This document shows positions 33,324-51,139 of a stretch of 64,000 bases of DNA, one piece after another. The stretch spans positions 620,001 to 684,000 of the forward strand of contig NZ_BCNW01000001.1 of assembly GCF_001571385.1 (NCBI RefSeq), in the 5' to 3' direction. The first letter of the stretch is position 1, and each line of letters begins with the position of its first letter. The DNA comes from Methanofollis ethanolicus (GTDB lineage Archaea; Halobacteriota; Methanomicrobia; Methanomicrobiales; Methanofollaceae). A program made the position numbers and the translations under genes. The notes beneath the pieces were generated by a model. That model was not told where the DNA came from. It searched no databases and saw only the letters and a program-made list of their open reading frames with translations.

Positions 33324-33334
33324 CCTCTGTCACC

Positions 33335-34214: not shown

Positions 34215-35288
34215 TCAGTCCCGCCGCACGGCGTACATCGCGGCGAAAAGAGATAGGGTGACAGAAAACGCCCCGAGAGGGGAGCGGGCAGCCTCTGACT
34301 CTGCCGGTCTCGTCTCATCGGGGGCGTTCAGGGCAGGTGCTGTCGGCGTGGTCGCGGTTTCTCTAGCAGGCATCTCCTCCCGGGCCTGATAGAGAGTCAC
34401 TCTTTTTCCTTCGTCTGCTGCCACGATCCTCTTTCCGTTGCCGGAGACTGCAAGGGCATGCGCCGGAGTGTCGACGACAGTGCCGATGATCTCGCCCCCT
34501 GGCGAGCGGAGGACGATCCCCTCGCCGCCCACGGCGATCAGGGTTCCTTCCTCTGCAATCCCAACTCCCGGAAGTCTGTCTCCTGAAACCGTTGTCCAGA
34601 GAAGATTGCCGTTCCTGTTGATGCAGGAGGCCACGCCGTGGTCGGCACCGACGGCGATATATGACCCGTCACCTGTGACTGAGCAGGAGAGACTGCTGCT
34701 TCCGGTGCCATAGCGCCACAGCAGTCGTCCATCGCCCGCGTATCTCAGCACCATCCCGTTTTTCGCTCCTGCCACGAGGGACGTGGCGTTGTCGGCGAGG
34801 TCCAGGGTGACGATGTCATCGTCGGTCTGAACTGACCATGACTGCAGAAAGACTCCGGTGGCGTTTTTCCTGAAGAGCGCCAGGCTTTCATTGTCAAAGG
34901 CCCCGGCAATGCAGGAACCGTCCGGGGAGACCCCGGCTCCGAGGGCAAAGTAGCCGTTCGCATGCCTGAAGATCCTGCTGCCGGTGCCGTCATATGCCCT
35001 GAGGTCTTCCCCACCGGTGACAACAAGGGAACCGTCCCCTGATATCCCGACAGTCCGGGCGTGGTTGCCAGGTACCTCCCAGAGAAGTGCGCCGCCGACA
35101 GAGTAGCAGGAAAGAGTGGAGTCGGTAAGGACGGCAACTGTCGATCCGTCTGCCGAGATGGCGACGTCGTTGACGGTATCTGCAACCGTCTTTTCCCATG
35201 TGGGTGCAAAGGACGGCCCGGCATGTGCAGGAGCCGCTGTCATGGAAAAAAAGAGGACGGCGATGAGGAGCAACTGTGGCGTTCTCAT
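34215..35288 (-). CDS. Secreted WD40/PQQ-like beta-propeller protein with C-terminal anchor
   Basis: 357 residues. Signal peptide 1-23 (LLLIAVLFFSMTAAPAHA). Repeated blades of the form DGSTVAVLTDSTLSCYSVGGALLWEVPG and DGSYIAVGADHGVASCINRNGNLLWTTVSG (in pieces), about seven in all, make a beta-propeller. A Thr/Pro/Glu-rich linker leads to PLGAFSVTLSLFAAMYAVRRD, a hydrophobic segment plus arginines typical of an archaeal sorting or membrane anchor. The gene start overlaps the stop of the preceding gene by 4 bp. It is the last gene of a four-gene overlapping operon. Ligand unknown. Confidence 0.8.
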   Translation of the reverse strand: MRTPQLLLIAVLFFSMTAAPAHAGPSFAPTWEKTVADTVNDVAISADGSTVAVLTDSTLSCYSVGGALLWEVPGNHARTVGISGDGSLVVTGGEDLRAYDGTGSRIFRHANGYFALGAGVSPDGSCIAGAFDNESLALFRKNATGVFLQSWSVQTDDDIVTLDLADNATSLVAGAKNGMVLRYAGDGRLLWRYGTGSSSLSCSVTGDGSYIAVGADHGVASCINRNGNLLWTTVSGDRLPGVGIAEEGTLIAVGGEGIVLRSPGGEIIGTVVDTPAHALAVSGNGKRIVAADEGKRVTLYQAREEMPARETATTPTAPALNAPDETRPAESEAARSPLGAFSVTLSLFAAMYAVRRD

Positions 35289-37264
35289 CCCGTCCTCCGA
35301 AGAAGAATACAGGTCCCGAGGAGTGAGATCATACCGGCGACGGCGCCGAACCCGGGTGCCGGCACGGCGGTTGTGGGTGCGGCTGCCCCGGCTTCAGGGA
35401 AGAGTTCGGGGTGGATGTCGGCGGCGACCTCTTCAAGGGCGTCGACGATCCGCGGGCCGCCGCGGTCGATGATGTCTGAACTGACGATGTATACCCTGCC
35501 GTCCTGCACGGCTTTCATCTTTGCAAAGCGGGGTTCGTTCACGAAGTACTGGTAGATCATGTCGGTTCCGCCGTCCCCCATCCCTGTCCCGGAGTTCACC
35601 AGGATGATATCGGGGTTGGTGGTGATGAACCGCTCCATGGTGACGATCTGCCAGCCTTCAATGCCGGAAAATGCGTTTTTCCCGCCGGCAAGGGTGATGA
35701 GTTCGTTCTGGAAGGTGGCGTTGCCGCTCACCCATATGGGGTCGTACCAGACGGCGTGCATCACGGTTGGGCGCTCGGTGGTCGTCCCGACGGTGGCGGT
35801 CACGGCGTCGATCCGCGTCTGCATGGACGTTCTCAGGGCGGCCGCTTCGGCGTTGCGTCCTGTCGCCTCCCCGACGAGGGCGATGTCGCGGAGCGTCCCC
35901 TGCAGGGAGTCGGGGTTGAGGGCGACGACCGTCAGGCCGAGGTTCCTGAGGTGGTTGACGACCTCCTCGGTGTTCCCGTACGCCGCAAGGACGAGGTCGG
36001 GCTTTGCCGCCACTACTTTCTCGATGTTCACGGTGGAATACCCGCCGACCTTTGGTTTGTCCTGTGCTTCGGCAGGATAATTGCAATAATCGGTGACGCC
36101 GACCACCCGGTCGCCGAGGCCGAGGGCGAAGAGGATCTCGGTGTTTGCCGGAGACAGGGAGACGATGCGCCGGGGTTCCCCGGCGACGGTGACGCTCACA
36201 CCGAAGTCGTCGGTGACGGTCACCGGTTGCCACGCAGAGGAGGTCGGTGCCGCGGTCGTCTGTACCGTCGGTGCTGCTACCGTCGTCGTCGTGGCGCTCG
36301 CCTTCGGCGTGGAGAGCGACGGCGTCTTCTGGCCGGGGAGGATGGGATAGGGTTTCCCGAGCAGGGCCGGGACCGCCCGCGCCGTCATGCCGCAGGGGTT
36401 GTCCGCGGTATAGGGCGTCCAGTTGAACGAACCATCGGTCTGCTGGAGGGCCAGCAGGTACGAGACCGCGTCTTTGCCGTTCTTTGACCACTTCGAGGGG
36501 TCTTCGCCCGCGGCAGTGGCGGCCTGGACCACCCATGCGACCGATGCAGCGTTTGACGAAGACGACCCGCCGTAGTTGAAGCCGCCGTCGTCCATCTGGT
36601 GCTTTCTGAGATAGTCGATGGCCTTTGCAACGGCGGGAGAGTCCTTCGGTTCACCCGTGGCGATGAGTGCCATGACCACGGCCGCCGTGTCGTCGGAGTC
36701 GCTCTCCGCGCCGGGCATCCAGCCGTAGCCACCGTCCTCGTTCTGCTGGCTCTTCAACCAGGCCGTGGGCTTCTCTGTCTTTTCACCCGCAGCGGCGAGA
36801 CCGAGGAGGCCCCAGTACGTGGTGTAGACGAAGTCACCGAACTGACCGTCGGCCTTCATCCGCCCCTTCAGGTCGGAGAGATAGTCGCGCCCGTTGAAGG
36901 AGTGCGGGTCCTCGCCGACGGCGGCGATGAGGGTCACCATCTTTCCGAGTTCGGCCGTCCCCTCGGGCTTCGAGGCTTCTTCGCTGTTTTTCCAGTAGTC
37001 GATAGCCGATGTGCCGTTCACCGTCCACGTATGGGGGTCATCGCCTGCGGCGACGATCGCCATCACGGCAAACCACGAGGTACCCGGGTTTGTCTCCCTT
37101 CCTGGTTCGGCGAAACCGCCGTCGGCCTGCTGGCAGGATCTGATGTAGTCCATGCTCTTCTGGACGGCCGGGTCGGCCGCGTCCGTCGGGTAGGCGGCAC
37201 CGAGGGCGCAGCAGGCGGTGCAGAGAAGAATAAGAATAGGAAGTGTCAGTCTCATTTCAGTCAT
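35285..37264 (-). CDS. Alpha/alpha-toroid (prenyltransferase-like repeat) fused to a BtuF-type corrinoid-binding domain, PGF-CTERM-like end
   Basis: 659 residues. Signal peptide 1-23. Residues 30-310 form an alpha/alpha toroid with DGGF-type repeats: QQADGGF (45-51), KADGQF, QQNEDGGYGW, HQMDDGGFNY and QQTDGSFNW. Residues 311-345 are a Thr/Ala/Pro linker. Residues 346-628 are a periplasmic-binding domain of BtuF/FepB type (RIVSLSPANTEILFALGLGDRVVGVTDYC in pieces). The end PAPGFGAVAGMISLLGTCILLRR resembles PGF-CTERM. The toroid is the fold of the N-terminal domain of transcobalamin and intrinsic factor, so corrinoid capture at the cell surface is likely; this is inferred. btuCD-like genes are 5 kb away. 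Confidence 0.8.
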   Translation of the reverse strand: MTEMRLTLPILILLCTACCALGAAYPTDAADPAVQKSMDYIRSCQQADGGFAEPGRETNPGTSWFAVMAIVAAGDDPHTWTVNGTSAIDYWKNSEEASKPEGTAELGKMVTLIAAVGEDPHSFNGRDYLSDLKGRMKADGQFGDFVYTTYWGLLGLAAAGEKTEKPTAWLKSQQNEDGGYGWMPGAESDSDDTAAVVMALIATGEPKDSPAVAKAIDYLRKHQMDDGGFNYGGSSSSNAASVAWVVQAATAAGEDPSKWSKNGKDAVSYLLALQQTDGSFNWTPYTADNPCGMTARAVPALLGKPYPILPGQKTPSLSTPKASATTTTVAAPTVQTTAAPTSSAWQPVTVTDDFGVSVTVAGEPRRIVSLSPANTEILFALGLGDRVVGVTDYCNYPAEAQDKPKVGGYSTVNIEKVVAAKPDLVLAAYGNTEEVVNHLRNLGLTVVALNPDSLQGTLRDIALVGEATGRNAEAAALRTSMQTRIDAVTATVGTTTERPTVMHAVWYDPIWVSGNATFQNELITLAGGKNAFSGIEGWQIVTMERFITTNPDIILVNSGTGMGDGGTDMIYQYFVNEPRFAKMKAVQDGRVYIVSSDIIDRGGPRIVDALEEVAADIHPELFPEAGAAAPTTAVPAPGFGAVAGMISLLGTCILLRRTG

Positions 37265-38855
37265 CCCTTTTTCGTATCATGTATGCACCTATTCCAATAA
37301 GAACGCCGGTAAACACCGTAAAAATGCCGATCGGCGTCTTCTGCGGTGTGGTCGTTGCCGGCGGCGCTTCCGTGGAGGGAGGTGCGGTTGGATCTGTCGC
37401 ATTCACCGGTGCTTCCTTCTCGCCGAGGGCGAGGAGCGCGAACCCGGAGAGTCCTGACGGGGATTCGGCCTCGAAGATCGGGTTGCCTGCACTGTCAGTC
37501 CCGGCCTGATGCGTCTCCAGGAACTCCACCGCCCCGTTGTCGGCGATATGGGCGATACGCACGGCGCCGGCGCCCCCGTGCTCCTCAACCCATGCAGGGG
37601 GAACGGAGATCCTGATCGTGGCGCCGAGGATGTCCTCGCCGTTGGCGATGCCGGTCTTCTCCAGGTGCATCACGCAGGCGACAGCGCCGATGCCTTTCTC
37701 TTCATCCGCTGCGACCAGCGCGATCGCCGACCGTACCGCAGGGGTAAGGGCCGGGACATAGGTCACGTTCACCTGCGCCTCGGCGGGCACGCCCCTGAGC
37801 GAGAGGCTGATCCTTCCCCCAACCTCTCCTATCCCCTCGATCGTTCCGGTGACCGGGTCCAGTTCTGCGGTGACGCCCCTGATAAAGCCGCTGGCCACGC
37901 CGTTCGTCTGTGTAATGTCGCCGGTCAGCACGGTCATCAGAAGGCCCGGACGTGCAATGATGATGCGGTCTCCCTTCACGGTCACCTGCTCTCCGGTGTT
38001 TCTGGGGGTCGTGTCGACCGTGATCCGCGACATGCCGCCTTCGGTGACGATGGAAACACCTGCCGGAAGACCGAGCGTGATCACCGGTCCGGTGGCGGGT
38101 CCGGGGCTGGCCACAGTGCCCGTGCCGGCGGATTCAGAATCGCCGCCGTCAGAACTCCCGCTCCCGAAGACGACCTTGAGATAGATGGGGTCTGTCGAGG
38201 TTTCAGGAGTGGCGCTCATGCTCTCGCTGTAGTAGAAGACGACCTTATCTCCGTTGTTCACATGGTGGGAGTTGGCGCCGACGGCCGGGGAGACGCCATT
38301 GACCTGGTACATCCACCCGCTCGTCCCCTGCCCTGCCCGGCCGTTGACGGAGGTGAGGTACAGGGTGCCGTAGGCGGCGTACCATGAGTCGCGGATCACG
38401 TAGGACGCGCCTGAGGCGTCGAGCGCACCAAGGGCGGTCCTGCGGTCGACGGAGTAGGACTTCCCGCTCTCCGCGGTCACGTTGAAGGTGCCCGACCCGA
38501 GGTACACGTCTTTCCAGACGGTCGAATCGCTATCGCCGCCGCCACCCCCGTTGCCGGGGCCTTCGCCGCCACCACTCTTCGCAATGGCAACCGACCGCGT
38601 GGTCGTCTCGCCGCCTGCGGTGGCGGTGACGGAGAGGGTGCCGGTGGTGTAGGGGATGTACCTGACCGTTCTTCCCTGTACGAAGATCGGCGTCCCGTTG
38701 TTCTCCTGGAAGATGACGAATGCCTCCTCGTCGCAGGTGACTGTCACCGCGGATCCTGCCGTGCTCCCCGAGACCTCTACGGTCAGGGCCGCAACCGGCA
38801 GGGCGCAGACGGCGACCGCCAGCAGCAGACAGATCAGGGTCAGGCGATGGTGCAT
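37257..38855 (-). CDS. Secreted protein with a DUF4430 (transcobalamin-like) domain and membrane anchor
   Basis: 532 residues. Signal peptide 1-23. An Ig-like strand region to about 90 and a Gly-rich linker (GGGEGPGNGGGGG) come first. A DUF4430 domain at about 115-215 carries RTALGALDASGASYVIRDSWY (in part) and GWMYQVNGVSPAVGANSHHVNNGDKVVFYY (in pieces). A long beta-rich region follows, then a Thr/Pro linker and the C-terminal helix IGIFTVFTGVLIGIGAYMIRKRDD. DUF4430 matches the C-terminal beta domain of vitamin B12 carriers. The start overlaps the preceding gene by 16 bp and the stop overlaps the next by 8 bp. Confidence 0.8.
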   Translation of the reverse strand: MHHRLTLICLLLAVAVCALPVAALTVEVSGSTAGSAVTVTCDEEAFVIFQENNGTPIFVQGRTVRYIPYTTGTLSVTATAGGETTTRSVAIAKSGGGEGPGNGGGGGDSDSTVWKDVYLGSGTFNVTAESGKSYSVDRRTALGALDASGASYVIRDSWYAAYGTLYLTSVNGRAGQGTSGWMYQVNGVSPAVGANSHHVNNGDKVVFYYSESMSATPETSTDPIYLKVVFGSGSSDGGDSESAGTGTVASPGPATGPVITLGLPAGVSIVTEGGMSRITVDTTPRNTGEQVTVKGDRIIIARPGLLMTVLTGDITQTNGVASGFIRGVTAELDPVTGTIEGIGEVGGRISLSLRGVPAEAQVNVTYVPALTPAVRSAIALVAADEEKGIGAVACVMHLEKTGIANGEDILGATIRISVPPAWVEEHGGAGAVRIAHIADNGAVEFLETHQAGTDSAGNPIFEAESPSGLSGFALLALGEKEAPVNATDPTAPPSTEAPPATTTPQKTPIGIFTVFTGVLIGIGAYMIRKRDD

Positions 38856-41593
38856 TCGGATCCTCCGCTGTGGGAGATCAGGCCGGCGGGATAGTTGTCC
38901 AGAGAGTAGATGCCGGCGTACAGGGTGTATGTGCCGGTACCTGTTCTGGCCGGGACGGAGACGATCACCGGGATACGGACGGTCTCTCCGGCGTCCAGCA
39001 TGACTGTGCCGATCCCGGCGATTGCGTCGCCGCCGCTGTTCGTCCCGCCCACGACAATACTATACCATCCGCTCCTGTCTGCCGAGGCCTCGACCTCTGT
39101 GATGATATACCCGCCGCGCGTCCCGTTTGTCAGTGGAGGGGTACCGACTGTTGCCTCTGTGACCGTGACATTGATATCGACGACATATGCCGCCTCGTCG
39201 ATGAGAGGCGCATAGGTGGTGGAGTTGAAGGGGCAGTAGTAGAAGGTGAGTCTGTCGCCGTCAACAAGGTCGTTCCCCCCGAGCCCTGCGGGTGTCGCTA
39301 CGCCGTTGACGAAGATCGACCATGACTTTGCATTCGGCTGTGTCCAATCCTCGTTTGCAATGCTATTGATGTCTTCGAGGTAGAATGAGCCGTATGATGT
39401 GTAATCCGCATCCGATGCGTTGAAGGTGAACCTTCCTGCCTTCGCGGCTGTGTCGAGTGCGCCGAGATCGGTGGTGCGGTTGATCTCATGGGAGGCGGAG
39501 GCGTTGTTCGACGGGACAAATGTGAAGGTGGTGTCGGAGAGTGCGACGCTGCCTTTCCAGATCACTGTGGGGCCGGAGGAGGCGTTGATGTCGATGATGA
39601 GGACGTACGTGGCTTCATCGATAATGGGTGCATAGGTGGTGGAGTTCGTGGGGCAGTAGTAGAATGTGAGTTCATCGCCGTCTTCGAGATCGTTTGCCCC
39701 GAGTCCGGAGGGTGCCGGCGAACCATTGACGAAGATCGACCAGGACTTTGCATTGAGTTTTGTCCAGTCCTCGTTGGCGATGCCTTCGATGTCTTCGAGG
39801 AGGAATGACCCGTATGATGCGTACCACGCGTCCGATGCGTTAAAGGTGAGCCCTCCTTCGGTTGCGGCTGTGTCGAGTGCGCCGAGATCGGTGGTGCGGT
39901 TGATCTCATAGGAGGCGGAAGCGTTGTTCGACGGTACGAATGTGAACGTGGTGTCGGAGAGTGCAACACTGCCGTCCCAGATCACTGTGGGGCCGGATGA
40001 GACGTTGATATCGATGGCGACGACATATGCCGCCTCGTCGATGAGAGGCGCATAGGTGGTGGAGTTCGTGGGGCAGTAGTAGAATGTGAGTTCATCGCCA
40101 TCTTTCAGGTCGTTTGCCCCGAGTCCGGAGGGTGCCGGCGAACCATTGACGAAGATCGACCAGGACTTTGCATTGGATTTTGTCCAGTCCTCGTTGGCAA
40201 TGCCTTCGATGTCTTCGAGGAGGAATGACCCGTATGATGCGTACCACGCGTCCGATGCGTTAAAGGTGAACCCCACTTCGGTTGCGGCTGTGTCGAGTGC
40301 GCCGAGGTCGGTGGTGCGGTTGATCTCATAGGAGGCGGAGGCGTTGTTCGACGGTACGAATGTGAAGGTGGTGTCGGAGAGAGAGACACTGCCGTCCCAG
40401 ATCGTTGTCGGAGCGGGTTTTCCTGCACCGAAGGCATAGAATCTGTTGTTCTCCGCGCCGATATACAGGACGCCGTCGGAGACCGCTGGCGATGAGGCAT
40501 AGAAAGCGGCAAAGGTGCCGTCGCCGGGGTCTGGCAGGGCATATGACCAGATTTTACTTCCGGTGGTCATGTTCACCGCGTACACGGTGCCGGTCTTCTC
40601 GTTGGTTCCGAAATATACGACCCCTCCCGCGATCACCGGCGAACCATCAATCCGTGCACTCTGGTAGACCCAGAGTGCGGTGCCGTCAGTGGCATTGTAG
40701 GCGTGAAGGCCGTTGGACGAGCCGACGATGACAGTCCCATCCGCGACGGCGGGCGTCGACGCTGTCCCGGTGATGCCTGTGTTCCAGGCCGCCGCACCGC
40801 TGGCTGCATTGAGGGCGTAGAGGCTGTTTGCCGTCGTCACATAGACCTTTCCATCGCCGACAACCGGCGTCGATTTCACGGCGGTCGGGAAGGTGGCGTT
40901 CCATACTTCTGCGTGGGTTGAGGCATTGATGCAGAAGATACTGCTCTCATTTCCGGCGACAAAGACCTTCCCGTCTGCTGCTGCAGGAGAGGTAAAGTAG
41001 CCTACGGCTCCGCTCGTGGGGAAGGACCATGACCCGACGCCTTCAGGCGTGAAGGTATGCAGCACGCTGTCCGAGGCCGAAAGGGCGTAGATCTTCCCTT
41101 CATAAACGAGGGGTGAGGAGGAGAGACCGAAATATCCCGTCGTGTCGATCTGGTCGCTCGACCAGAGCGTGGACCCTGTTCCTTCGTCGATGCAGTAGAG
41201 TTTCCCGTCTGTCCCGCCAAGATAGACATGTCCGTCGGCGACGGCAACGCCCGAGACTGACCCGACGCTCGGACCGCCGAGTTCGTTCGTCCAGAGTTCT
41301 CTACCCGTGGTCGCGTTATAGCAGACAAGCCCCATCGGTCCGCTGTTGGTGGAGTCCATGTCCGGCCAGGTAGGTACAAAGACCTTTCCGTCATGGACTG
41401 CCGGCGAACCGTCGGCGTACTCGGCGGTCTCCGCCACCCATAGGGTGGTGTTTGTCAGGGGACCGGCGGAGAGCGCCGCCCCCGTCCGTCCGCTGTCCGC
41501 GTGGAACATCGGGTAATCGGCCGCCGCAGCCGGTGCGGCCAGTATCAGCAGGAATATGCAGAATATCTCTGTACCATAGGATTTTTCAGCCAT
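38840..41593 (-). CDS. Large secreted protein: PQQ-like beta-propeller plus three tandem DUF4430 domains
   Basis: 917 residues. Signal peptide about 1-25. Residues 25-395 are an eight-blade-like PQQ/WD propeller (DGKVYVTTANSLYALNAASG type blades). Three near-identical DUF4430 units of 140 residues follow (about 395-535, 535-675, 675-810), each with NRTTDLGALDTAA, SYGSFLLEDIEGIANEDWT and FVNGSPAPSGLGANDL. A final Ig-like domain (about 815-917) includes GTVMLDAGETVRIPVIVSV. There is no C-terminal anchor, so it presumably docks on its operon partners. Many N-x-S/T sites are present. First gene of the operon; GGGAG is 8 bp before the ATG. Confidence 0.8.
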   Translation of the reverse strand: MAEKSYGTEIFCIFLLILAAPAAAADYPMFHADSGRTGAALSAGPLTNTTLWVAETAEYADGSPAVHDGKVFVPTWPDMDSTNSGPMGLVCYNATTGRELWTNELGGPSVGSVSGVAVADGHVYLGGTDGKLYCIDEGTGSTLWSSDQIDTTGYFGLSSSPLVYEGKIYALSASDSVLHTFTPEGVGSWSFPTSGAVGYFTSPAAADGKVFVAGNESSIFCINASTHAEVWNATFPTAVKSTPVVGDGKVYVTTANSLYALNAASGAAAWNTGITGTASTPAVADGTVIVGSSNGLHAYNATDGTALWVYQSARIDGSPVIAGGVVYFGTNEKTGTVYAVNMTTGSKIWSYALPDPGDGTFAAFYASSPAVSDGVLYIGAENNRFYAFGAGKPAPTTIWDGSVSLSDTTFTFVPSNNASASYEINRTTDLGALDTAATEVGFTFNASDAWYASYGSFLLEDIEGIANEDWTKSNAKSWSIFVNGSPAPSGLGANDLKDGDELTFYYCPTNSTTYAPLIDEAAYVVAIDINVSSGPTVIWDGSVALSDTTFTFVPSNNASASYEINRTTDLGALDTAATEGGLTFNASDAWYASYGSFLLEDIEGIANEDWTKLNAKSWSIFVNGSPAPSGLGANDLEDGDELTFYYCPTNSTTYAPIIDEATYVLIIDINASSGPTVIWKGSVALSDTTFTFVPSNNASASHEINRTTDLGALDTAAKAGRFTFNASDADYTSYGSFYLEDINSIANEDWTQPNAKSWSIFVNGVATPAGLGGNDLVDGDRLTFYYCPFNSTTYAPLIDEAAYVVDINVTVTEATVGTPPLTNGTRGGYIITEVEASADRSGWYSIVVGGTNSGGDAIAGIGTVMLDAGETVRIPVIVSVPARTGTGTYTLYAGIYSLDNYPAGLISHSGGSECTIA
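39160..40425 (-). repeat. Three tandem 420-bp coding repeats
   Basis: Units of exactly 420 bp encode the DUF4430 domains. The two units around 39580-40001 and 40002-40421 differ at only a few per cent of positions; the third (39160-39580) is more diverged. This indicates recent duplication or gene conversion. Confidence 0.75.
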
Positions 41594-41654
41594 TCACATT
41601 CTCCCTATTTTATTATACTTAACACAGAATTATTTGATAAGATGATATGGTTTT

Positions 41655-41728
41655 AGTTCAAATATATTTTGTTTTCGCGCGTTGCGATCCTCTCGATCTC
41701 GCCTACCATCCCAGACGATATATAAATA
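41655..41728. promoter_or_regulatory. Divergent promoters of the surface operon and the 63-aa gene
   Basis: AAATATATT (41660-41669) read on the minus strand lies about 70 bp before the large surface-protein gene. GATATATAAATATG (41713-41726) on the plus strand lies about 40 bp before the small gene at 41762. Confidence 0.45.
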
Positions 41729-41761
41729 TGATATTATGTATTGAGGATACTGGTGAGTGCC

Positions 41762-41953
41762 ATGATCTGCATGGGATATGCAAGCATCTCTCCCGAACTG
41801 GTGGAGAAGATGAAGAAACTTGAGAAGGAGATGGGCGTGACGCTCCTTGCATACGCGAAACCGACCTATTCGACGCTGAAGGACGACGACCTCAAGAAGA
41901 TCCAGGCCCTGGAGAAGGAACTCGGACTCTCTCTCGTCGCGTACGAGGTCTGA
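41762..41953 (+). CDS. Small protein of unknown function with an internal repeat
   Basis: 63 residues from ATG 41762 (GGTGA 5 bp upstream). The sequence has two copies of a helix-strand unit, KKLEKEMGVTLLAYAKP and QALEKELGLSLVAYEV, so it may be a tiny duplicated alpha/beta fold. No signal peptide or cysteines except one near the start. It lies between the surface operon and btuC and is followed by a T run (42039-42045). Function unknown; a link to corrinoid uptake is only positional. Confidence 0.65.
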   Translation: MICMGYASISPELVEKMKKLEKEMGVTLLAYAKPTYSTLKDDDLKKIQALEKELGLSLVAYEV

Positions 41954-42053
41954 GATCATCGGGTGGGGGAAGGCGGGACGCGTGCCCCTCTTTTGGAGGT
42001 GCACACATGCCGCTCTGCACGTGACGAGGAATGCATTCTTTTTTTCACTTGAG

Positions 42054-42065
42054 TAAATTTATTTG
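42054..42065 (+). promoter_or_regulatory. Promoter of the btuC-btuD operon
   Basis: TAAATTTATTTG lies about 35-40 bp before the ATG at 42097, predicting a very short leader. No clear Shine-Dalgarno sequence is seen. Confidence 0.45.
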
Positions 42066-42096
42066 CATTAAGATTGCATCATTTGTAGAAGAATTC

Positions 42097-43044
42097 ATGC
42101 AAAGAAAAAACTGGACGATACTGGTTTTCTTATTCTTTTTCCTTCTCCTGAGTATCGTCCTCTCCACCGCCATCGGGACGAGCGGTCTCTCCCTCCTCCA
42201 GATGGACCCGGAAACCGTCTCCATGCTCCTCTTTGACGTGCGCCTGCCGCGCGTGCTGGCCGCCCTCCTCGTCGGCGCCGGCCTTGCCGTTGCCGGCACG
42301 GCGATGCAGGGCCTCTTCAAGAACGCGATGGCCGACCCCTACATCATCGGCACCTCGTCGGGCGGCGCTCTCGGCGCCGCCATAGCGATCGTTTTCTTTG
42401 CGGGTATGGGCCTGCCGGTCTTCGCGTTCGTCGGCGCAACCGCGTCCACCATCCTTGTCTTTCTCATCTCCCGCCGGGACGGCAGGGTGGCGGTCGAGAC
42501 CCTCCTCCTCTCCGGCATTGCGGTGTCGATGTTCCTCTCCGCCATACTCTCCTTCATCATGTACCTCTCCGGGAGCAGCCTCCACCAGATCATGTTCTGG
42601 CTGATGGGCGGGTTCTGGAACATCTCGTGGGACAACGTCTGGGTGGCCCTCTCTATACCTCTCGGCTGCCTCGTCCTCTTCGTCTTTGCACGCGACCTGA
42701 ACGTCATCTCCCTCGGTGAGGAGGACGCGGTCCACCTCGGCGTCGATGTCGAGAGGCTGAAGGTCGCCCTCCTCCTCCTCTCGTCGTTCATCACCGGGAT
42801 CGCCGTCTCGGTCGCCGGTGCCATCGGCTTTATCGGGCTCATCACGCCGCACGTGATGCGCCTTCTTGTCGGCCCGGACCACCGGATCCTCATCCCCGCC
42901 TCCATGATGGCTGGCGCGATCCTCCTCCTCTGGGCCGACACCCTCGCCCGCACCCTGCCGAGCGAGATCCCCGTCGGCATCGTCACGTCGTTCTTCGGCG
43001 CACCGTTCTTCATCTACCTCCTCCGGAGCAGGACACGGACATGA
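42097..43044 (+). CDS. btuC: FecCD/BtuC-type ABC transporter permease
   Basis: 315 residues from ATG 42097; an earlier in-frame ATG at 42031 precedes the promoter-like TATA box and is rejected. About nine to ten membrane helices. Landmarks are LRLPRVLAALLVGAGLAVAGTAMQGLFKNAMADPYIIGTSSGGALG (in pieces), the FecCD gate region, and GLITPHVMRLLVGPDHRIL near the C-terminus. The family imports corrinoids, siderophores or haem. The flanking BtuF-type and transcobalamin-like proteins favour corrinoids (inference). It overlaps the ATPase gene by 4 bp. Confidence 0.85.
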   Translation: MQRKNWTILVFLFFFLLLSIVLSTAIGTSGLSLLQMDPETVSMLLFDVRLPRVLAALLVGAGLAVAGTAMQGLFKNAMADPYIIGTSSGGALGAAIAIVFFAGMGLPVFAFVGATASTILVFLISRRDGRVAVETLLLSGIAVSMFLSAILSFIMYLSGSSLHQIMFWLMGGFWNISWDNVWVALSIPLGCLVLFVFARDLNVISLGEEDAVHLGVDVERLKVALLLLSSFITGIAVSVAGAIGFIGLITPHVMRLLVGPDHRILIPASMMAGAILLLWADTLARTLPSEIPVGIVTSFFGAPFFIYLLRSRTRT

Positions 43045-44309
43045 CAGAGATAATGGTCCGGACAGAAGACCTTGGCGTCGCCTACGGAGACGTCCGGGTG
43101 CTGGAGGCGGTCTCCCTTGCAGTGACCGAAGGGTCCTTCATCGGGGTCCTCGGGCCGAACGGTTCGGGGAAGACCACCTTCCTCCGTGCGCTCTCCCGGA
43201 TCCTCGAACCTTCGGCCGGGACGGTCTCTATCGAGCAGAAAGAACTCTCGGAATTTTCGATCAGAGAACTTGCCACGCGGGTCGGTGCCGTCCCGCAGGA
43301 GACCGGCGTCACCTTTGCCTTCACCGTCGAGGAGATCGTGCAGATGGGCCGCCACCCCTATCTCGGCCCTCTCTCCTCGCTGAAAGAGGAGGACTACACG
43401 ATCTGCCGCCATGCGATGGAGCAGACCAACACCGCCCACCTTGCCGACCGCCTGATCACCGAGATCAGCGGGGGCGAGCGCCAGCGGGTTCTCATCGCCC
43501 GTGCCCTCGCCCAGCAACCGAAGGTCCTCCTCCTCGACGAACCCACCTCTCACCTCGACATCAGCCACCAGATCGAGATCCTCTCCATTATCAGGGGACT
43601 GACCCCCCGCGTCACGGTCATCGGCGTCTTTCACGACCTCAACCTTGCGGCATGCTTCTGCGACAGGATCGTCCTGCTGGAGAAGGGGCGGGTCGTCGCC
43701 GCCGGCACCCCGGCAGAGGTGCTCACCGACGAGACCATCCGCAGGGTCTTTGGGGTCGGGATGATGGTCCGGACCCACCCCCTCACCGGCCGGCCGTACC
43801 TCGTCCCGCGGTACGATCAGGCCCTGACCGGGGATGGCGGCGGTCTGCACATCCATGTCGTCTGCGGCGGGGCCACCGGGGCCGAGACGATGTACGCCCT
43901 CTCTGCCCGGGGGTACCGCCTCACGGCTGGCGTTCTTTCGGCTAACGATTCAGACTGTACTACAGCCGAGGCCCTCGGCATCGACGTCGTCAGGGAATCC
44001 CCCTTCGCCCCGATTTCGTCCACGTCCCTTGCGTCCCTTGCCGGTGTTCTCCAGACCGCCAATGCCGTCGTCGTCACCGAGATGCCGGTGGGGCCGGGGA
44101 ACATCGCCAACCTGAGGGCCCTCACCGGGTTGCAGGGCCCTCCCATTTTCGTCCTGGCGCATTCGGGGACACCCATTTCAGTGCGCGACTATACGGGTGG
44201 CGAGGCGACCGCTATCTTCTCGACGCTCTGCCGTGACGGTGCCGTGGCCGTCAGGAGCGTGCCCGAACTCCTGGAGAAACTGGGAGGCCTGGTGGCGGTC
44301 GGGGCATGA
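43041..44309 (+). CDS. btuD: BtuD/FecE-type ABC transporter ATPase with an extra C-terminal domain
   Basis: 422 residues. The ATPase (1-250) has Walker A GPNGSGKTT (about 38-46), the Q-loop, signature ISGGERQR, Walker B VLLLDEPTSHLD and the switch His in GVFHDLN. Residues about 262-422 form an extra alpha/beta domain of unknown role: LHIHVVCGGATGAETMYALSARGYRL, LSANDSDCTTAEALGIDVV and VVTEMPVGPGNIANLRAL. It looks like a Rossmann-type ligand-sensing domain. The domain could regulate the transporter; this is inferred. Overlaps both neighbours by 4 bp. Confidence 0.85.
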   Translation: MTEIMVRTEDLGVAYGDVRVLEAVSLAVTEGSFIGVLGPNGSGKTTFLRALSRILEPSAGTVSIEQKELSEFSIRELATRVGAVPQETGVTFAFTVEEIVQMGRHPYLGPLSSLKEEDYTICRHAMEQTNTAHLADRLITEISGGERQRVLIARALAQQPKVLLLDEPTSHLDISHQIEILSIIRGLTPRVTVIGVFHDLNLAACFCDRIVLLEKGRVVAAGTPAEVLTDETIRRVFGVGMMVRTHPLTGRPYLVPRYDQALTGDGGGLHIHVVCGGATGAETMYALSARGYRLTAGVLSANDSDCTTAEALGIDVVRESPFAPISSTSLASLAGVLQTANAVVVTEMPVGPGNIANLRALTGLQGPPIFVLAHSGTPISVRDYTGGEATAIFSTLCRDGAVAVRSVPELLEKLGGLVAVGA

Positions 44310-45040
44310 CCGTCCCTGTCGGCGCCTCCACCTACTGCCTCATGGACAGACCCCTCGTCGAGGCGCTGGAGGCCCTTGCCCGTGCCGTCCCCCTCGTCGA
44401 AATTCTTTCCGACTCCTCCCACTCACTCTTCTCCTGTGCCGACGTCTGCACATCATTCGATCTCAGGTACACCGTCCATGCCCCCACCTCCGACCTCAAT
44501 ATCGCCACCCCCAACGAGAGGATGCGAGAGGCGTCTGTGCAGATCATCGCCGACCTCGCCGTCATCTGCGACGAGATCGGGGCGGAGAGGCTTGTCATCC
44601 ATCCGGGCTTCTGCATGGAGAGGGGAGTATGGGCGGCGTCGGAGGCGGCGCTCCTCTCCTCCCTCAGCGACCTCTCCCGCCTCCAGGAGGGCGCCGCGGT
44701 CACCTTTGCGATCGAGAACATGGGCTCATGGAGTTGCTGCCACTTCAGGGACCCCGGCCTCCTGCCCGTTCTTGACGACCTCGGTCTCGGCTTCGCCCTC
44801 GACGTCGGCCACGCCTGCCTCACCGGCACTCTCGACGCCTTCCTCAGGGAAGGACGACCTGTCCACCTCCACCTCCACGACAACCGCGGCACGATGGACG
44901 AGCACGCCGCCTGCGGTTCTGGATGCATCGACTTTTCGGCCGTCAGGTCTGCCCTCTCCCCGTCGACGACCGCCGTTATCGAGGTGCTGAAACCAGCGGC
45001 TGTGGGGGAGAGCCTTGTATATCTGGATAGGATGTGGTGA
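44306..45040 (+). CDS. Xylose-isomerase-like TIM-barrel protein (AP endonuclease 2 superfamily)
   Basis: 244 residues. TIM-barrel metal-site features: VHAPTSDLN (about 57-65), LVIHPGFC (about 97-104), IENMGSW with the Glu ligand (about 138), LDVGHACL (about 165-172), and VHLHLHDNRG (about 190-199). All expected His/Glu/Asp ligands appear present. Such proteins are sugar isomerases/epimerases or endonuclease IV relatives. Its 4-bp overlap with the corrinoid-type ATPase gene suggests a role on an imported substrate, perhaps its ribose or nucleotide part; that is speculation. Confidence 0.75.
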   Translation: MTVPVGASTYCLMDRPLVEALEALARAVPLVEILSDSSHSLFSCADVCTSFDLRYTVHAPTSDLNIATPNERMREASVQIIADLAVICDEIGAERLVIHPGFCMERGVWAASEAALLSSLSDLSRLQEGAAVTFAIENMGSWSCCHFRDPGLLPVLDDLGLGFALDVGHACLTGTLDAFLREGRPVHLHLHDNRGTMDEHAACGSGCIDFSAVRSALSPSTTAVIEVLKPAAVGESLVYLDRMW

Positions 45041-45425: not shown

Positions 45426-46448
45426 TTAGACGAGCATCTTGATCGGGTGCTTCTCGGCCTTGAGTTCGCCGCCGAGCTCCTTGAGAGCCTCGGTAAGGAC
45501 GATGTCGCTGAATGCAGCCGCGGTGGCGATGCCCTCCATGTTCTCGATAGGCCCGAACATGATCAGGTCCGCACCGAGGGTCATGGCCATGATGTTGCAG
45601 CCGATATCAGGGGCCGCCCATGCCGTCTGCCTGATGCCTTCCATGCCGCCGAAGTGGTGGTGGGACATCTGCTCGAGGAGGAGGTCCTTGCCCTCGTACT
45701 GGGAGGCGAGGACGCTCTTGCGCCAGCGCTTGAGCCAGGTCCAGGAGACAGTCATGTTGTGGTAGGCGCCGCCGGTCGGCATGCCGTGGATCGCCTTGCA
45801 GGCGAGGATCTCACGGAAGGAGCCGCCGGATCCGAGGCCGAGCGGAGTGGCCGCAGTGTCGAGGATCGGGCGGGTGATGCCGCACTCCGCGGCAATGTCG
45901 AGCATGGACTGTGCCTGGCCAGCAACGCCGCCCTCGGCGAGCACCTTCTCACGGCCGACGACCGACGGGTCGCCGGGGTTGAAGGCGAGGACAATCGCTG
46001 AGTTGACGTCCGAGTTTTTCAGGGCCTCGATGCTCTCCGGGGTGATGGAGCCGTTGATCGAGTTGTAGATCGCACGGTCCGCGATGCCGACCTCGGTGAC
46101 GTACTTGCAGGCGTGAGCGAGTGCGTCCGGGGCCGAAGAGTCCATCAGGAACGGGGTCTTGTCGTCGATCGAGCAGAACCAGTCGAAGTAACTCTCGAAC
46201 GCCTCGCCGTGCTCGGCGATGATCTGGATGAAGAACGGGTTCCCGGTCTGGTCATACAGTTCCTGGGTCCGGTTCCAGAGCGCCTCGGCCTTTGCCTTGT
46301 CGATCTTTCCGGTGTGGTCGTCGAGCACTACCTCATGCTTGTTGTAGAAGATGGATGCGCCAAGCACTCTCGGGTACTCGCCCGGCTGGCCACCGATCTT
46401 GATGCCGTTAAAGTCCCAAACGGCCTGTTCCTTCTCAAACTTGAACAT
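45426..46448 (-). CDS. mtrH: Methyl-H4MPT:CoM methyltransferase subunit H
   Basis: 340 residues, cytosolic TIM-barrel subunit that moves the methyl group from methyl-tetrahydromethanopterin to the cob(I)amide of MtrA. Landmarks are FKFEKEQAVWDFNGIKIGGQPGEYP (in pieces), GSIFYNKHEVVLDDH-like start region, DSSAPDALAHACKYV and LGLGSGGSFREILACKAIHGMPTGGAYHN (in pieces). GGAGGCGAGATCAGT precedes the ATG. Last gene of mtr; its tail is followed by a T run. Confidence 0.96.
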   Translation of the reverse strand: MFKFEKEQAVWDFNGIKIGGQPGEYPRVLGASIFYNKHEVVLDDHTGKIDKAKAEALWNRTQELYDQTGNPFFIQIIAEHGEAFESYFDWFCSIDDKTPFLMDSSAPDALAHACKYVTEVGIADRAIYNSINGSITPESIEALKNSDVNSAIVLAFNPGDPSVVGREKVLAEGGVAGQAQSMLDIAAECGITRPILDTAATPLGLGSGGSFREILACKAIHGMPTGGAYHNMTVSWTWLKRWRKSVLASQYEGKDLLLEQMSHHHFGGMEGIRQTAWAAPDIGCNIMAMTLGADLIMFGPIENMEGIATAAAFSDIVLTEALKELGGELKAEKHPIKMLV

Positions 46449-46463
46449 ACTGATCTCGCCTCC

Positions 46464-47207
46464 TTACATCATCAGTTTCATTATTTTCGGGAGCAGGAAC
46501 ACGATCATCTCAAAGACGACCAGTCCGGCCACCAGTCCATAGAGAATGCCGATGTCACGGCCGATTTTACGACCGACACGCTGGGCGACCTCGGCATTTA
46601 CGAACTCAATCTTCGTTTCGATGTCATCGAGTCTCTTCTCGATCTCGAGGAACTGCGGGTTTGCACCGGCGACCGCTGCACCAGCGGCACCGCCCTCAGC
46701 TTCCTTGACTTCGACGACAATCGGTGCCTCGCCGAATGCTCCGGGGTCCTTGCCCTTGAGTTCGGCGATCTTCGCCTTGATTGCGCCGAGGTCTTCGGAC
46801 TCCATGATATCGACGATCTCGGTCTGGGCCTGGAAGCGCTTGATCGCCGCGTCATCGAGGTTCTCGATGAAGGGGATAGCGCCCTGCGACCCGACAACCT
46901 TGCCGCCCTCGACGCCGCCCTCATGGAGAGCCTTGAGGGTCTGGCCGGACAGGTGTCCCTTGACCTCGGTACCACAGAGGAGGACAAATCTGATGTTCGG
47001 GTTTGCGACGATGTTTGCGATGACCTTTTCAAGGCCGAGGTTCTCGGTCTTGCAGGACCCGCAGAGTGCTGCGCCTGCGTCACAGATAGCCTGCTCGTCG
47101 AGGTGGGAGCCCATGGTGACGACTGCGACACAGGAATTTGCGTCGCCCGAGTGGAAGTCACCCTTTACGAGGGGCCATCCACTTGCCGGTGATGTCTTGT
47201 CTGCCAT
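46464..47207 (-). CDS. Fusion protein: second MtrA corrinoid domain joined to MtrG
   Basis: 247 residues from ATG 47207 (GAGGTGA 6 bp upstream). Residues 1-175 are the cytosolic MtrA domain, with only about three substitutions relative to the canonical MtrA encoded at 47416 (for example ESGI/EGGV and FVD/IVD). The Co-ligating His is kept (His85 in VKGHLSGQ). After an Ala/Gly linker, residues 185-247 are Mtr[21 protein letters not shown], then [12 protein letters not shown] and a C-terminal membrane helix. No separate mtrG exists in the operon, so this protein must supply MtrG. MtrA's own membrane helix is replaced by that of MtrG. Whether the second corrinoid site is active is unknown. Confidence 0.88.
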
Positions 47208-47217
47208 TTTCTTCACC

Positions 47218-47415
47218 TCAGATCAGGAATGCCGGCACCAGGATCAGGGCAAGCGAGATGAGCATCCCGACAGCAAAGCCGGGGATCCCTGAGTCCATGA
47301 TGCCGGAGTCGAGTTTGTTCGTCCTGGCGGAGATCTGTGCCTTGAACTTGATGTCAGCCATGATACTGTCGATGGCGGCCATCCTGATTGCGCCAGATTT
47401 CTTTTCTTCTGCCAT
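47218..47415 (-). CDS. mtrF: Methyl-H4MPT:CoM methyltransferase subunit F
   Basis: 65 residues: soluble helix ([29 protein letters not shown] in pieces) plus one membrane helix ([21 protein letters not shown] in part). It resembles the C-terminal anchor of MtrA, as is known for MtrF. It lies between the two mtrA-containing genes, with its start directly after the mtrA stop. Confidence 0.88.
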
Positions 47416-48144
47416 TTAGAGCGCCCCCATCCAGAGGAAACCGAGCAGGGCGAAGGAGACGATCAGGCCGATCATCAGGCCCTCAACCTTGCCCGAGTAG
47501 ACACCGGCAGCAAACCTGTTGCGGTAGCCGATGTCGGTGACCATCTTCTCGATAGTCTTGAAGCGGGCGTGGATGAGTGCAAGGTCGCCGTTCATCTCGA
47601 CGATCTCGCCGCCTTCCTCCTCTGCACCGCCGCCTTCTTCCTTGACTTCGACGACAATCGGTGCTTCGCCGAATGCTCCGGGGTCCTTGCCCTTGAGTTC
47701 GGCGATCTTCGCCTTGATTGCGCCGAGGTCTTCGGACTCCATGATATCGACGAATTCGGTCTGGGCCTGGAAGCGCTTGATCGCCGCGTCATCGAGGTTC
47801 TCGATGAAGGGGATTGCGCCCTGCGACCCGACAACCTTGCCGCCCTCAATGCCGCTCTCGTGGAGAGCCTTGAGGGTCTGGCCGGACAGGTGTCCCTTGA
47901 CCTCGGTACCACAGAGGAGGACAAATCTGATGTTCGGGTTTGCGACGATGTTTGCGATGACCTTTTCAAGGCCGAGGTTCTCGGTCTTGCAGGATCCGCA
48001 GAGTGCCGCGCCTGCGTCACAGATGGCCTGCTCGTCGAGGTGGGAGCCCATGGTGACGACTGCGACACAGGAATTTGCGTCGCCCGAGTGGAAGTCACCC
48101 TTTACGAGGGGCCATCCACTTGCCGGTGATGTCTTGTCTGCCAT
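47416..48144 (-). CDS. mtrA: Methyl-H4MPT:CoM methyltransferase subunit A (canonical)
   Basis: 242 residues from ATG 48144 (GAGGTGA upstream; an ATG-like codon 9 bp earlier is rejected). Cytosolic corrinoid-binding domain 1-175 with His85 (VKGHLSGQ) matching the cobalt-ligating His84 of Methanothermobacter MtrA. A Glu/Gly-rich linker ([13 protein letters not shown]) leads to the C-terminal part [23 protein letters not shown] and one membrane helix. The corrinoid accepts the methyl group from MtrH and passes it to coenzyme M, driving sodium export. Confidence 0.95.
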
Positions 48145-48154
48145 TTTTTTCACC

Positions 48155-48439
48155 TCAGATCAGTGCGAGGGCGATAATCCCCGCAAGGAGCAGTCCTACA
48201 GCGAGACCATACCAGAGTGCGGTGACACCGCCGGCGACGACCAGAGACTTCTCTCTGCCCGGATACGAGGCAAGGAAACTGCCTTCGCCCGAGAGCATGC
48301 CGACGAGGTCGTCGGAGATCTTCTCGAGTTCGGCGACCTTGTCGATCACCGGCTGATAGGAAACTCCTGCCGTGGTGACAACGCCGACCATCGGGTCGAC
48401 GACCAGCCCGAATTCGGGCAGTACGTGGACATATCCCAT
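48155..48439 (-). CDS. mtrB: Methyl-H4MPT:CoM methyltransferase subunit B
   Basis: 94 residues. N-terminal soluble part [18 protein letters not shown] and [19 protein letters not shown], then one C-terminal membrane helix ([22 protein letters not shown] in part). Typical MtrB. Shares one base with the mtrC stop and precedes mtrA by 10 bp. Confidence 0.93.
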
Positions 48440-49305
48440 TAGTCCTCACCCTTTGGTTCCAGAATCGGCTTTGCGTCGAGCCATGCGAACGCGTCGCGCT
48501 TCGAGAGTTCGAGGAAGCGGGCGTAGGTGTAGTACCAGCCGGCGACTGCCACGATGAGGGAGAGAACTGCCGCACCGATGCCAACGAAGGCAAAGGAGAT
48601 CACGGCGACCGGGATCATGGAGAGGAAGCCGCACTCTGCGGCGAGCATGAGGGTCCGGTCCTGCTTCTCGCCGGGGCCGAGGCAGGCGTTGAATGGGTGC
48701 TGCAGCGCGATGGAGCCGAGCATGAAGGAGACTGCCACGAGACAGCCGCCAAGGACCGTGAATTCGAAGTTCTTCATGGCAAGAGGCCCGAGAATGGCGA
48801 TCTCGCGTGCAGAGAGGGCTTCGAACCCGAATCCTCCGGCCATGACGGCCGTGAAGCCCATGAGGACGATTGCACCGATGATGGCCATCTCGGTGAGCGA
48901 GCGGACCATGACCGGGATGTTCATCCTCATGACGTTGTTTGCAAGCCAGCCGGCCACTCCGCCGATGATGGCGCCGAAGACGACGGCCATGATGGGGGAG
49001 AGGAACATGCTGTTGAACACGTCTGCGGTCGCAAGGAGCATGGCGATGACGCCGGAGCCGAATGCGATCATACCGGCAGAAGGCACGCCGGTTCCGATAC
49101 CGTAACTGCAGAGGTGCTTGATGGTGTCAGTGCCCCATATCAGGGCGAAGACTGCCGCAAGGCCGCCGAAGAGAGCGGCGTACTCGACAGAGAGGTACTG
49201 GTTCAGGTAGGTCAGGTACAGGCAGACAATCGATCCCACAAGACCATATGCCATGATCGTGTTGTGGGGAATGCCACCCTTTGACGCGGTAACTTGTACT
49301 GTCAT
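48439..49305 (-). CDS. mtrC: Methyl-H4MPT:CoM methyltransferase subunit C
   Basis: 288 residues from ATG 49305; an upstream in-frame start 15 bp earlier overlaps mtrD and is unlikely. About eight membrane helices. Conserved SYGIGTGVPSAGMIAFGSGVI and ALQHPFNACLGPGEKQDRTL. MtrC, D and E form the membrane core linked to sodium translocation. Confidence 0.94.
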   Translation of the reverse strand: MTVQVTASKGGIPHNTIMAYGLVGSIVCLYLTYLNQYLSVEYAALFGGLAAVFALIWGTDTIKHLCSYGIGTGVPSAGMIAFGSGVIAMLLATADVFNSMFLSPIMAVVFGAIIGGVAGWLANNVMRMNIPVMVRSLTEMAIIGAIVLMGFTAVMAGGFGFEALSAREIAILGPLAMKNFEFTVLGGCLVAVSFMLGSIALQHPFNACLGPGEKQDRTLMLAAECGFLSMIPVAVISFAFVGIGAAVLSLIVAVAGWYYTYARFLELSKRDAFAWLDAKPILEPKGED

Positions 49306-49306
49306 T

Positions 49307-50146
49307 TTACACCACCACAATCAGGACTGCAAACAGACCGGCAACTGCCGAAGCGACTGCGCACCCGATGACGGCACGGGGGAAGCGCTTGAACTTCGGG
49401 TCGTGGGGGCCTTCGATCGTGCCCGTGATGTTGTACGCAGCAAGCACGGCGTTCATGAGGAACATGCCGACGGCGAAGATGCCCGCAAGAGAGACGGCGA
49501 CAGGGAGTACGTCCGCAGCGGTCGCGCTGAAGAGCTCGGGGAGCTTTGCGGCGTAGACCTGGAGGAGCTCGTAGTAGATGAGCGTACCGCCGGCACCGCC
49601 GAGCATACCGCCGATCACGCCGCCAACATAGGAGATGAATGGCAGGCCGTGGCCTTCAGTGCCCTGGGACTTGTACTCGGCCTGGGAGTCGCCGGTGATC
49701 GGGTCCTTTGCGACCTTGCCTGATGCGGCCGGGATACCCATGCCGAAGATGTAGACGATGTTGACCATCAAACAGGTGACTGCCATCAGGAGACCGCCGC
49801 CGATAGCGCCGGCAGCAATGACAATGGCGATGCCGAACGCGGGGTTCGCCGCGGCCCATGCGCCGCCGAAGAGACCGGCAAGGCCGGCACCGGCTGCGAG
49901 CATGGCGACACCGGTTGCAATGCCCGGAGACTGGCCCATGGCTGCAGGTGCGCCGCCGACCGGCACGAAGTGAACACCGAAGCCGATGAGAAGGCCGCCG
50001 ATGATCACGCCGATAAGAGCGGCGAGGGCGAAGTTCGCAAAGACTGCCGCGATGGCAACCGCCGCGATGATGATCACGATGCCGATAACAGATGCGACCG
50101 GGTTGATGCCCTCGGAGGCACTGGGCTTGGCTGCAATTGCGGTCAT
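49307..50146 (-). CDS. mtrD: Methyl-H4MPT:CoM methyltransferase subunit D
   Basis: 279 residues with six to seven membrane helices. The conserved loop GVHFVPVGGAPAAMGQSPGIATGVAML (in pieces) and KVAKDPITGDSQAEYKSQGTEGHGLPFISYVGG (in pieces), with the charged residues known for MtrD. The start overlaps the mtrE stop by 4 bp. Confidence 0.95.
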   Translation of the reverse strand: MTAIAAKPSASEGINPVASVIGIVIIIAAVAIAAVFANFALAALIGVIIGGLLIGFGVHFVPVGGAPAAMGQSPGIATGVAMLAAGAGLAGLFGGAWAAANPAFGIAIVIAAGAIGGGLLMAVTCLMVNIVYIFGMGIPAASGKVAKDPITGDSQAEYKSQGTEGHGLPFISYVGGVIGGMLGGAGGTLIYYELLQVYAAKLPELFSATAADVLPVAVSLAGIFAVGMFLMNAVLAAYNITGTIEGPHDPKFKRFPRAVIGCAVASAVAGLFAVLIVVV

Positions 50147-51042: not shown

Positions 51043-51139
51043 TCGTCTCCCTCCCAGCGCACAGAGATGCACGAGAGTTTTCAGTTCGCGTTACCACAGA
51101 GATGGAGTTCAAACTCGTTGTGGTTCATTTAACAGTCGT

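Follow-up and report, generated by a model that had tools for sequence, protein, structure and literature searches.

A candidate corrinoid capture and import locus in Methanofollis ethanolicus that combines a toroid-BtuF fusion, DUF4430 surface proteins and BtuCD

We analysed a 64,000-nt stretch of the 2.71-Mb genome of Methanofollis ethanolicus (NZ_BCNW01000001.1, positions 620,001–684,000; hereafter the window, within which all coordinates are given), where four genes for surface proteins lie beside genes for a BtuCD-type transporter (Table 1). The surface genes are on the minus strand and their successive ends overlap by 16, 8 and 4 bases, whilst a divergent plus-strand set, btuC-btuD followed by a gene for a CbiR-like protein, has overlaps of 4 and 4 bases. 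An initial annotation of this DNA had described overlapping genes for secreted proteins with BtuC/BtuD-type neighbors and proposed that they form a corrinoid capture system. All of these genes were found where it had placed them and Pfam agreed with their description; the CbiR-like gene and a conserved 63-aa ORF (41762–41953) had not been named in it. DUF4430 is the family of the C-terminal domain in the animal B12 carriers (PMC4350170), and all DUF4430 domains of the genome (n = 4) fall in this locus. As the layout also recurs across the order Methanomicrobiales, the arrangement is not due to chance.

Table 1. Features of the locus, with their positions in the window and the support for each.
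Feature	Position	Strand	Support
Secreted PQQ-type beta-propeller (residues ~26–395) with three DUF4430 domains; first of the four surface genes	38840..41593	-	Pfam PQQ_2 1e-44, DUF4430 1.2e-22 (3 stretches)
Propeller protein, DUF4430 domain 1	40034..40408	-	
Propeller protein, DUF4430 domain 2	39614..39988	-	
Propeller protein, DUF4430 domain 3	39194..39568	-	
Surface protein: N-terminal beta domain, one DUF4430, conserved tail domain, C-terminal membrane anchor	37257..38855	-	Pfam DUF4430 3.9e-15
DUF4430 (transcobalamin C-terminal-like beta-grasp) of the single-DUF4430 protein, GWMYQVNG motif	38211..38531	-	
Fusion protein: signal peptide, alpha/alpha toroid, Thr/Ala-rich linker, BtuF-like substrate-binding domain, PGF-CTERM-like tail	35285..37264	-	
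Alpha/alpha toroid, residues 21–310	36335..37204	-	Pfam SQHop_cyclase_C 1.4e-17 (SQHop/Prenyltrans)
Toroid alpha7/alpha8 loop N-x-DGG[FY]xW...SDxDDT, residues 175–195 (D189, D191, D192, T193)	36680..36742	-	Conservation
BtuF-like domain, residues 345–630	35375..36232	-	Pfam Peripla_BP_2 7.9e-43
Secreted WD/PQQ-type beta-propeller, C-terminal anchor; last of the four surface genes	34215..35288	-	Pfam propeller match
Divergent intergenic region between surface genes and btuCD	41594..42030	.	No Rfam riboswitch
Small conserved ORF (open reading frame), 63 aa	41762..41953	+	Homologs in relatives' corrinoid loci
btuC-type permease	42031..43044	+	Pfam FecCD 3e-93; best curated model = vitamin B12 BtuC
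btuD-type ATPase, C-terminal extension (residues ~265–422)	43041..44309	+	ABC_tran 7e-33; corrinoid ABC transporter ATPase model 5.8e-107
CbiR-like AP-endonuclease-2 family protein (putative cobamide-remodeling phosphodiesterase)	44306..45040	+	NF041277 4.8e-18
mtr operon (corrinoid-dependent methyltransferase), mtrH adjoining the CbiR-like gene	45426..51072	-	Context

A search for the same operon beside btuCD in other archaea, as the initial annotation had suggested, showed that the arrangement recurs across Methanomicrobiales. The toroid-BtuF fusion was found in 23 of 61 related genomes, and strong DUF4430 matches (expectation value E below 1e-8) were present in 22 of these 23 genomes versus 0 of the 38 without the fusion (Fisher test 1e-15, a value inflated by genome relatedness). 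The sole exception, G001, has its fusion at a contig end. Neighborhood maps of 20 fusion loci placed DUF4430 proteins next to the fusion in every one (20/20), with btuC-btuD in nearly all and often a CbiR-like gene as well. A congener (G011, locus L099) encodes a plain BtuF, btuC, btuD and the CbiR-like gene but lacks both toroid and DUF4430, a pattern that would fit gain or loss of the toroid/DUF4430 module as a single unit added to a simple BtuCDF system. In some genomes plain BtuF and toroid-BtuF are present side by side. The Methanogenium cariaci locus L140 (10174–13517) has its toroid-BtuF and propeller genes broken into several ORFs, which suggests a decaying copy or sequencing errors.

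A toroid profile was run once against a species-genome collection, and its matches came from Methanomicrobiales, Archaeoglobales, Clostridia and some other bacteria. In the Archaeoglobales (L123–L138, L142) DUF4430 and toroid form one protein, which is followed by a separate BtuF gene, and btuC lay inside the examined flank in 9/17 loci. The single-DUF4430 protein of the window aligned with the N-terminal half of this Archaeoglobales protein (31% identity, E 9e-29) and the window toroid with its C-terminal half, the two toroids being 48% identical. Because one lineage has the toroid joined to DUF4430 and another has it joined to BtuF, the three parts are linked to one another. Outside these groups, three loci (L168, L172 and L174) have the toroid followed by DUF4430 in a single chain, the domain order of the animal carriers. 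Two of these, L172 (9818–11668) and L174 (9821–11413), are from candidate-phyla bacteria (Parcubacteria and Falkowbacteria records) and their chain is secreted.

In Clostridia, toroid and DUF4430 genes share an energy-coupling factor (ECF) operon with genes for a CbiQ-like T component and a tandem ATP-binding cassette (ABC) ATPase. A cobalamin riboswitch (RF00174) was present upstream on the same strand in 16/16 clostridial loci with upstream DNA in the sequence (L144–L148, L150–L152, L156–L159, L161, L165–L167), with the best copy per locus scoring 75–136 bits. The distance from riboswitch to the first DUF4430 gene was within ~0.25 kb in 13 loci and 0.9–2.3 kb in L144, L148 and L167; in L144 a CbiZ/CbiS-like gene of the operon lies in between. 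Five of these genomes contain only 2–15 cobalamin riboswitches per 3.5–6.4 Mb.

The alpha7/alpha8 loop is among the most conserved parts of the toroid. SDxDDT was present in 27/27 Methanomicrobiales copies, in all Archaeoglobales copies that are complete and, within the clostridial operons, in the toroid genes linked to the ABC system, and is missing from most toroids of other contexts; the pattern used in the toroid scan selected on the loop's first half and did not require SDxDDT. The cobalt-binding histidine of rat transcobalamin is located in its alpha7/alpha8 loop (PMC11107200), and from helix order we infer that the SDxDDT loop stands at the position of this cobalt-ligand loop. Recognition of the toroid by sequence as an intrinsic-factor homolog was tried and rejected, as cyclase families were matched instead.

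The second half of the fusion matched Escherichia coli BtuF at ~1e-23. The pocket of the E. coli protein is lined by six corrinoid-contact aromatic residues (PMC5269720), and four of these six positions, read from the alignment, are aromatic in the window protein: Y50, W66, F168 and W196 align with Y393, Y409, W511 and W538, whilst W85 and F162 fall out of register. The domain is thus predicted to have the periplasmic-binding-protein fold with an aromatic corrinoid pocket that is typical of BtuF. No earlier description of a toroid-BtuF fusion was found in the open-access literature searched, coverage of which was incomplete.

Pfam DUF4430 matches of 56.5 bits (single-DUF4430 protein) and 80.6 bits (propeller protein), against a cut-off of 23.8, place both proteins in the transcobalamin C-terminal-like beta-grasp clade (DUF4430, SLBB). 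As a stand-in for the window toroid and DUF4430 we modeled L133, a naturally fused Archaeoglobales DUF4430-toroid chain (predicted local distance difference test score, pLDDT, 88.7). In the model the toroid is predicted to have twelve helices, matching the alpha6/alpha6 toroid of the animal carriers, and its DUF4430 has a helix (116–127) followed by strands 131–136 and 139–145 at pLDDT above 90. This beta-hairpin after a helix is the defining feature of the transcobalamin-like clade. An AlphaFold2 model of the single-DUF4430 protein of the window (pLDDT 78.6) also has strands after the helix (131–134 and 145–149), less regular than those of the L133 homolog. A fold search with this protein gave no meaningful match; a hit to a Bacteroides B12-binding lipoprotein (E ~0.009) was not used, as its template modeling (TM) score was 0.16 and its root-mean-square deviation 19. 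The conserved tail domain after DUF4430 in the same protein (residues ~241–490) matched nothing in Pfam and no PDB fold clearly.

For the propellers, neither had a sequence match to the Bacteroides B12-binding proteins. A counterpart of the last surface gene (34215–35288) follows toroid-BtuF in most relatives and is absent beside several toroid-BtuF genes. Just downstream of the surface genes (31506–33898, minus strand) is a gene for a DUF2207 membrane protein with a Gly-rich tail, beside a LemA-family gene.

The transporter genes were closest to B12/corrinoid models, ahead of those for iron, haem and F420-0. The BtuC model scored 333.6 bits (cut-off 461) against 243.4 for F420-0 and ≤213.8 for iron, and the corrinoid BtuD model 358 bits (cut-off 537) against 271 for the next model. 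The CbiR-like protein scored 65.6 bits against NF041277 (cut-off 105). Nine of its residues, H58, H99, E137, D166, H169, H187, D198, H200 and E226, are conserved in 24–25 of 25 sequences and by analogy may be metal ligands. The C-terminal extension of BtuD (43833–44306, ~158 aa) is common to Methanomicrobiales and many Archaeoglobales and has no Pfam match. Alignment of the divergent intergenic region showed an AT-rich, promoter-like block, and no clear operator was found in it. The 63-aa ORF upstream of btuC contains two copies of a LEKExGxxLxAY-like motif and has no Pfam match above cut-off; its homologs (46–86% identity) are in the corrinoid loci of ~10 other Methanomicrobiales, with a stop codon interrupting the L069 copy.

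Beyond the CbiR-like gene, mtrH also lay within the examined stretch of 13 further loci, from other Methanofollis genomes and several of a second family. Of the two cobamide genes sought in the host genome, both were found, encoding CbiD and CbiZ (the latter outside the locus), so the host may both make and remodel cobamides. The mtr region also encodes two tandem MtrA-domain proteins (46464–47216 and 47416–48153, minus strand), which are 75.6% identical and recur as a pair in related genomes; one has a C-terminal MtrG domain (4e-23) and the other a weak MtrF-like C-terminus (0.0015).

Sequence comparison establishes the genes themselves, their joint inheritance and the corrinoid context that is conserved around them. 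On this basis corrinoids are very probably the substrate class of the locus, and the proposal of a corrinoid capture system in the initial annotation gains support from DUF4430 co-inheritance, the btuCD and CbiR-like neighbors, the Archaeoglobales fusion, the clostridial riboswitches and the mtr neighbor. A conserved link to an unrelated substrate, which would have spoken against that proposal, was not seen near btuCD. As the best explanation of the whole, we consider it probable that this is a corrinoid capture and import locus with a two-piece transcobalamin-like clamp. Propeller carriers would display DUF4430 domains on the cell surface, and several such domains per protein could raise local capacity. 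In the clamp, DUF4430 would lie against one face of the corrinoid, with the loop face of the toroid, including the SDxDDT loop, against the other; for this sandwich mode of binding we see the chances as even. When separated, the alpha and beta domains of the animal carriers still bind cobalamin, on which they assemble (PMC11107200). Because a flexible linker joins the toroid to BtuF within one anchored polypeptide, the hand-over of ligand to BtuF would be short-range. BtuF would then load BtuCD for import. Once inside the cell, foreign cobamides would be remodeled by the CbiR-like enzyme and by CbiZ to serve Mtr, among other uses.

Several observations weigh against this interpretation. The matches for BtuC, BtuD, BtuF and CbiR are all below curated cut-offs, with the BtuF equivalog model at 118 bits against 234. 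Rfam gave no riboswitch in the window, nor in the Archaeoglobales loci L123 and L129. About half of the Archaeoglobales loci have no btuCD nearby, and beside these no corrinoid genes were seen, the checked neighbors being unrelated and mostly genes for tRNA modification and fatty acids. A few genomes have extra DUF4430 arrays elsewhere, so DUF4430 alone is no proof of a corrinoid ligand, and the host, given CbiD, may make its own cobamide. None of 21 toroids gave a match to Pfam's family of eukaryotic cobalamin-binding proteins, even with E relaxed to 10, and the DUF4430 profile reached E 0.78 at best with human transcobalamin-1. In a Foldseek search with the L133 model, cyclases and prenyltransferases ranked first and transcobalamin/intrinsic factor was absent among the 50 PDB matches listed. 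The predicted TM score (pTM) of this model was 0.60 and its linker was disordered, which makes the predicted placement of its domains relative to each other uncertain.

Corrinoid import could be true with no transcobalamin-type sandwich, the toroid and DUF4430 being separate binding or scaffold modules and capture being mainly by the propellers, in the manner of Bacteroides surface proteins, or by BtuF alone. The locus does have two propellers, toroid and DUF4430 are on different polypeptides in the window, the toroid is unlike intrinsic factor in sequence, and the L133 domain arrangement is uncertain. This is nevertheless unlikely in our view, as toroid and DUF4430 are one chain in Archaeoglobales and co-occur almost perfectly in Methanomicrobiales, whilst the propellers gave no sequence match to the Bacteroides B12-binding proteins and one of them has no counterpart beside several toroid-BtuF genes. 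Another ligand (haem, a siderophore, F420-0 or the 'distinct metabolite' put forward in 2007 for B12-making archaea) with an incidental proximity to btuCD is less likely again, and we regard it as improbable. The Peripla_BP_2 and FecCD families serve iron and haem too, the closest solved relative of the BtuF-like domain carries the annotation 'iron-binding protein', the host encodes CbiD and some Archaeoglobales loci have no btuCD close by; against these stand the CbiR-like and mtr neighbors, the higher scores of the B12 models over those for iron and F420-0, and the cobalamin riboswitches over the clostridial homologs in 16 of 16 loci with upstream DNA. Very improbable is a toroid that is an extracellular relative of class II terpene cyclases, using a DxDD acid on a lipid or isoprenoid, with DUF4430 and propellers as adhesins: its profile match to squalene-hopene cyclase families (~1e-18) and its DSDDTA segment, which aligns with cyclase DVDDTA and contains the DxDD motif of this class, keep an enzymatic role alive, but it is secreted, fused to BtuF or DUF4430, only ~290 residues long as a single toroid with a linker and BtuF where a second cyclase domain would be, and its clostridial homologs are under cobalamin riboswitches.

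We then compared the two-piece clamp with known systems. The beta-grasp clade was defined by Burroughs et al. (2007; PMC1796856), who pointed out bacterial toroid fusions and CbiO/CbiQ operons and predicted B12 scavenging. The Gram-positive SLBB (DUF4430)/toroid proteins of that study resemble those of the window in having the same two domain families, secretion and an ABC uptake operon. They differ in that the window has its toroid fused to BtuF, its DUF4430 domains on other proteins than the toroid, and BtuCD in place of an ECF transporter. The combination had been called unusual in the initial annotation; bacterial toroid and DUF4430 genes in uptake operons have been known since 2007, whilst the archaeal BtuF fusion, together with the evidence on its substrate, looks new. 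For archaeal members 'a distinct metabolite' was suggested because archaea often make B12 (PMC1796856); contrary to this, we argue that archaeal DUF4430/toroid members near btuCD serve corrinoids.

Animal intrinsic factor, transcobalamin and haptocorrin share the DUF4430 family with this locus, and their twelve toroid helices are seen in the model of the Archaeoglobales homolog. By contrast, toroid and DUF4430 are on two polypeptides in Methanomicrobiales and in reversed order in Archaeoglobales, the toroid is not recognizable as intrinsic factor by sequence, and an SDxDDT loop is found where transcobalamin has a histidine loop. The BtuCD-F importer (E. coli; haloarchaeal models) has homologs of all three of its parts in the window, with corrinoid models scoring best, but here BtuF is surface-anchored with an N-terminal toroid, and DUF4430 and propeller proteins are encoded alongside. 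BtuG is a beta-propeller. BtuG/BtuH-type lipoproteins of Bacteroides (PMC6143338) are, like the proteins described here, surface-exposed capture proteins ahead of an importer, although there is no outer membrane in this case and the toroid/DUF4430 module is a part of the system described here. The CbiR of Akkermansia (PMC7733943) resembles the window gene in its AP-endonuclease-2 family, conserved His/Asp/Glu set and adjoining corrinoid genes. In the 2020 CbiR survey (PMC7733943) homologs were reported from only one archaeal taxon, whereas CbiR-like genes recur here across Methanomicrobiales corrinoid loci, with the window score below the family cut-off.

Methanogens need corrinoids for methyl transfer, and extracellular corrinoid capture in archaea has been little studied. 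The neighborhoods described here point to corrinoids where the 2007 analysis left the archaeal ligand open, and they name proteins, domains and residues that can be tested. That this is a two-piece archaeal transcobalamin, and that one ancient toroid-plus-beta-grasp module is common to animal carriers, ECF-linked receptors of bacteria and the importer of archaea, is a tentative idea to which we give slightly less than an even chance. If the split clamp is true, a single capture module would be represented among the compared lineages by fused, split and BtuF-linked versions.

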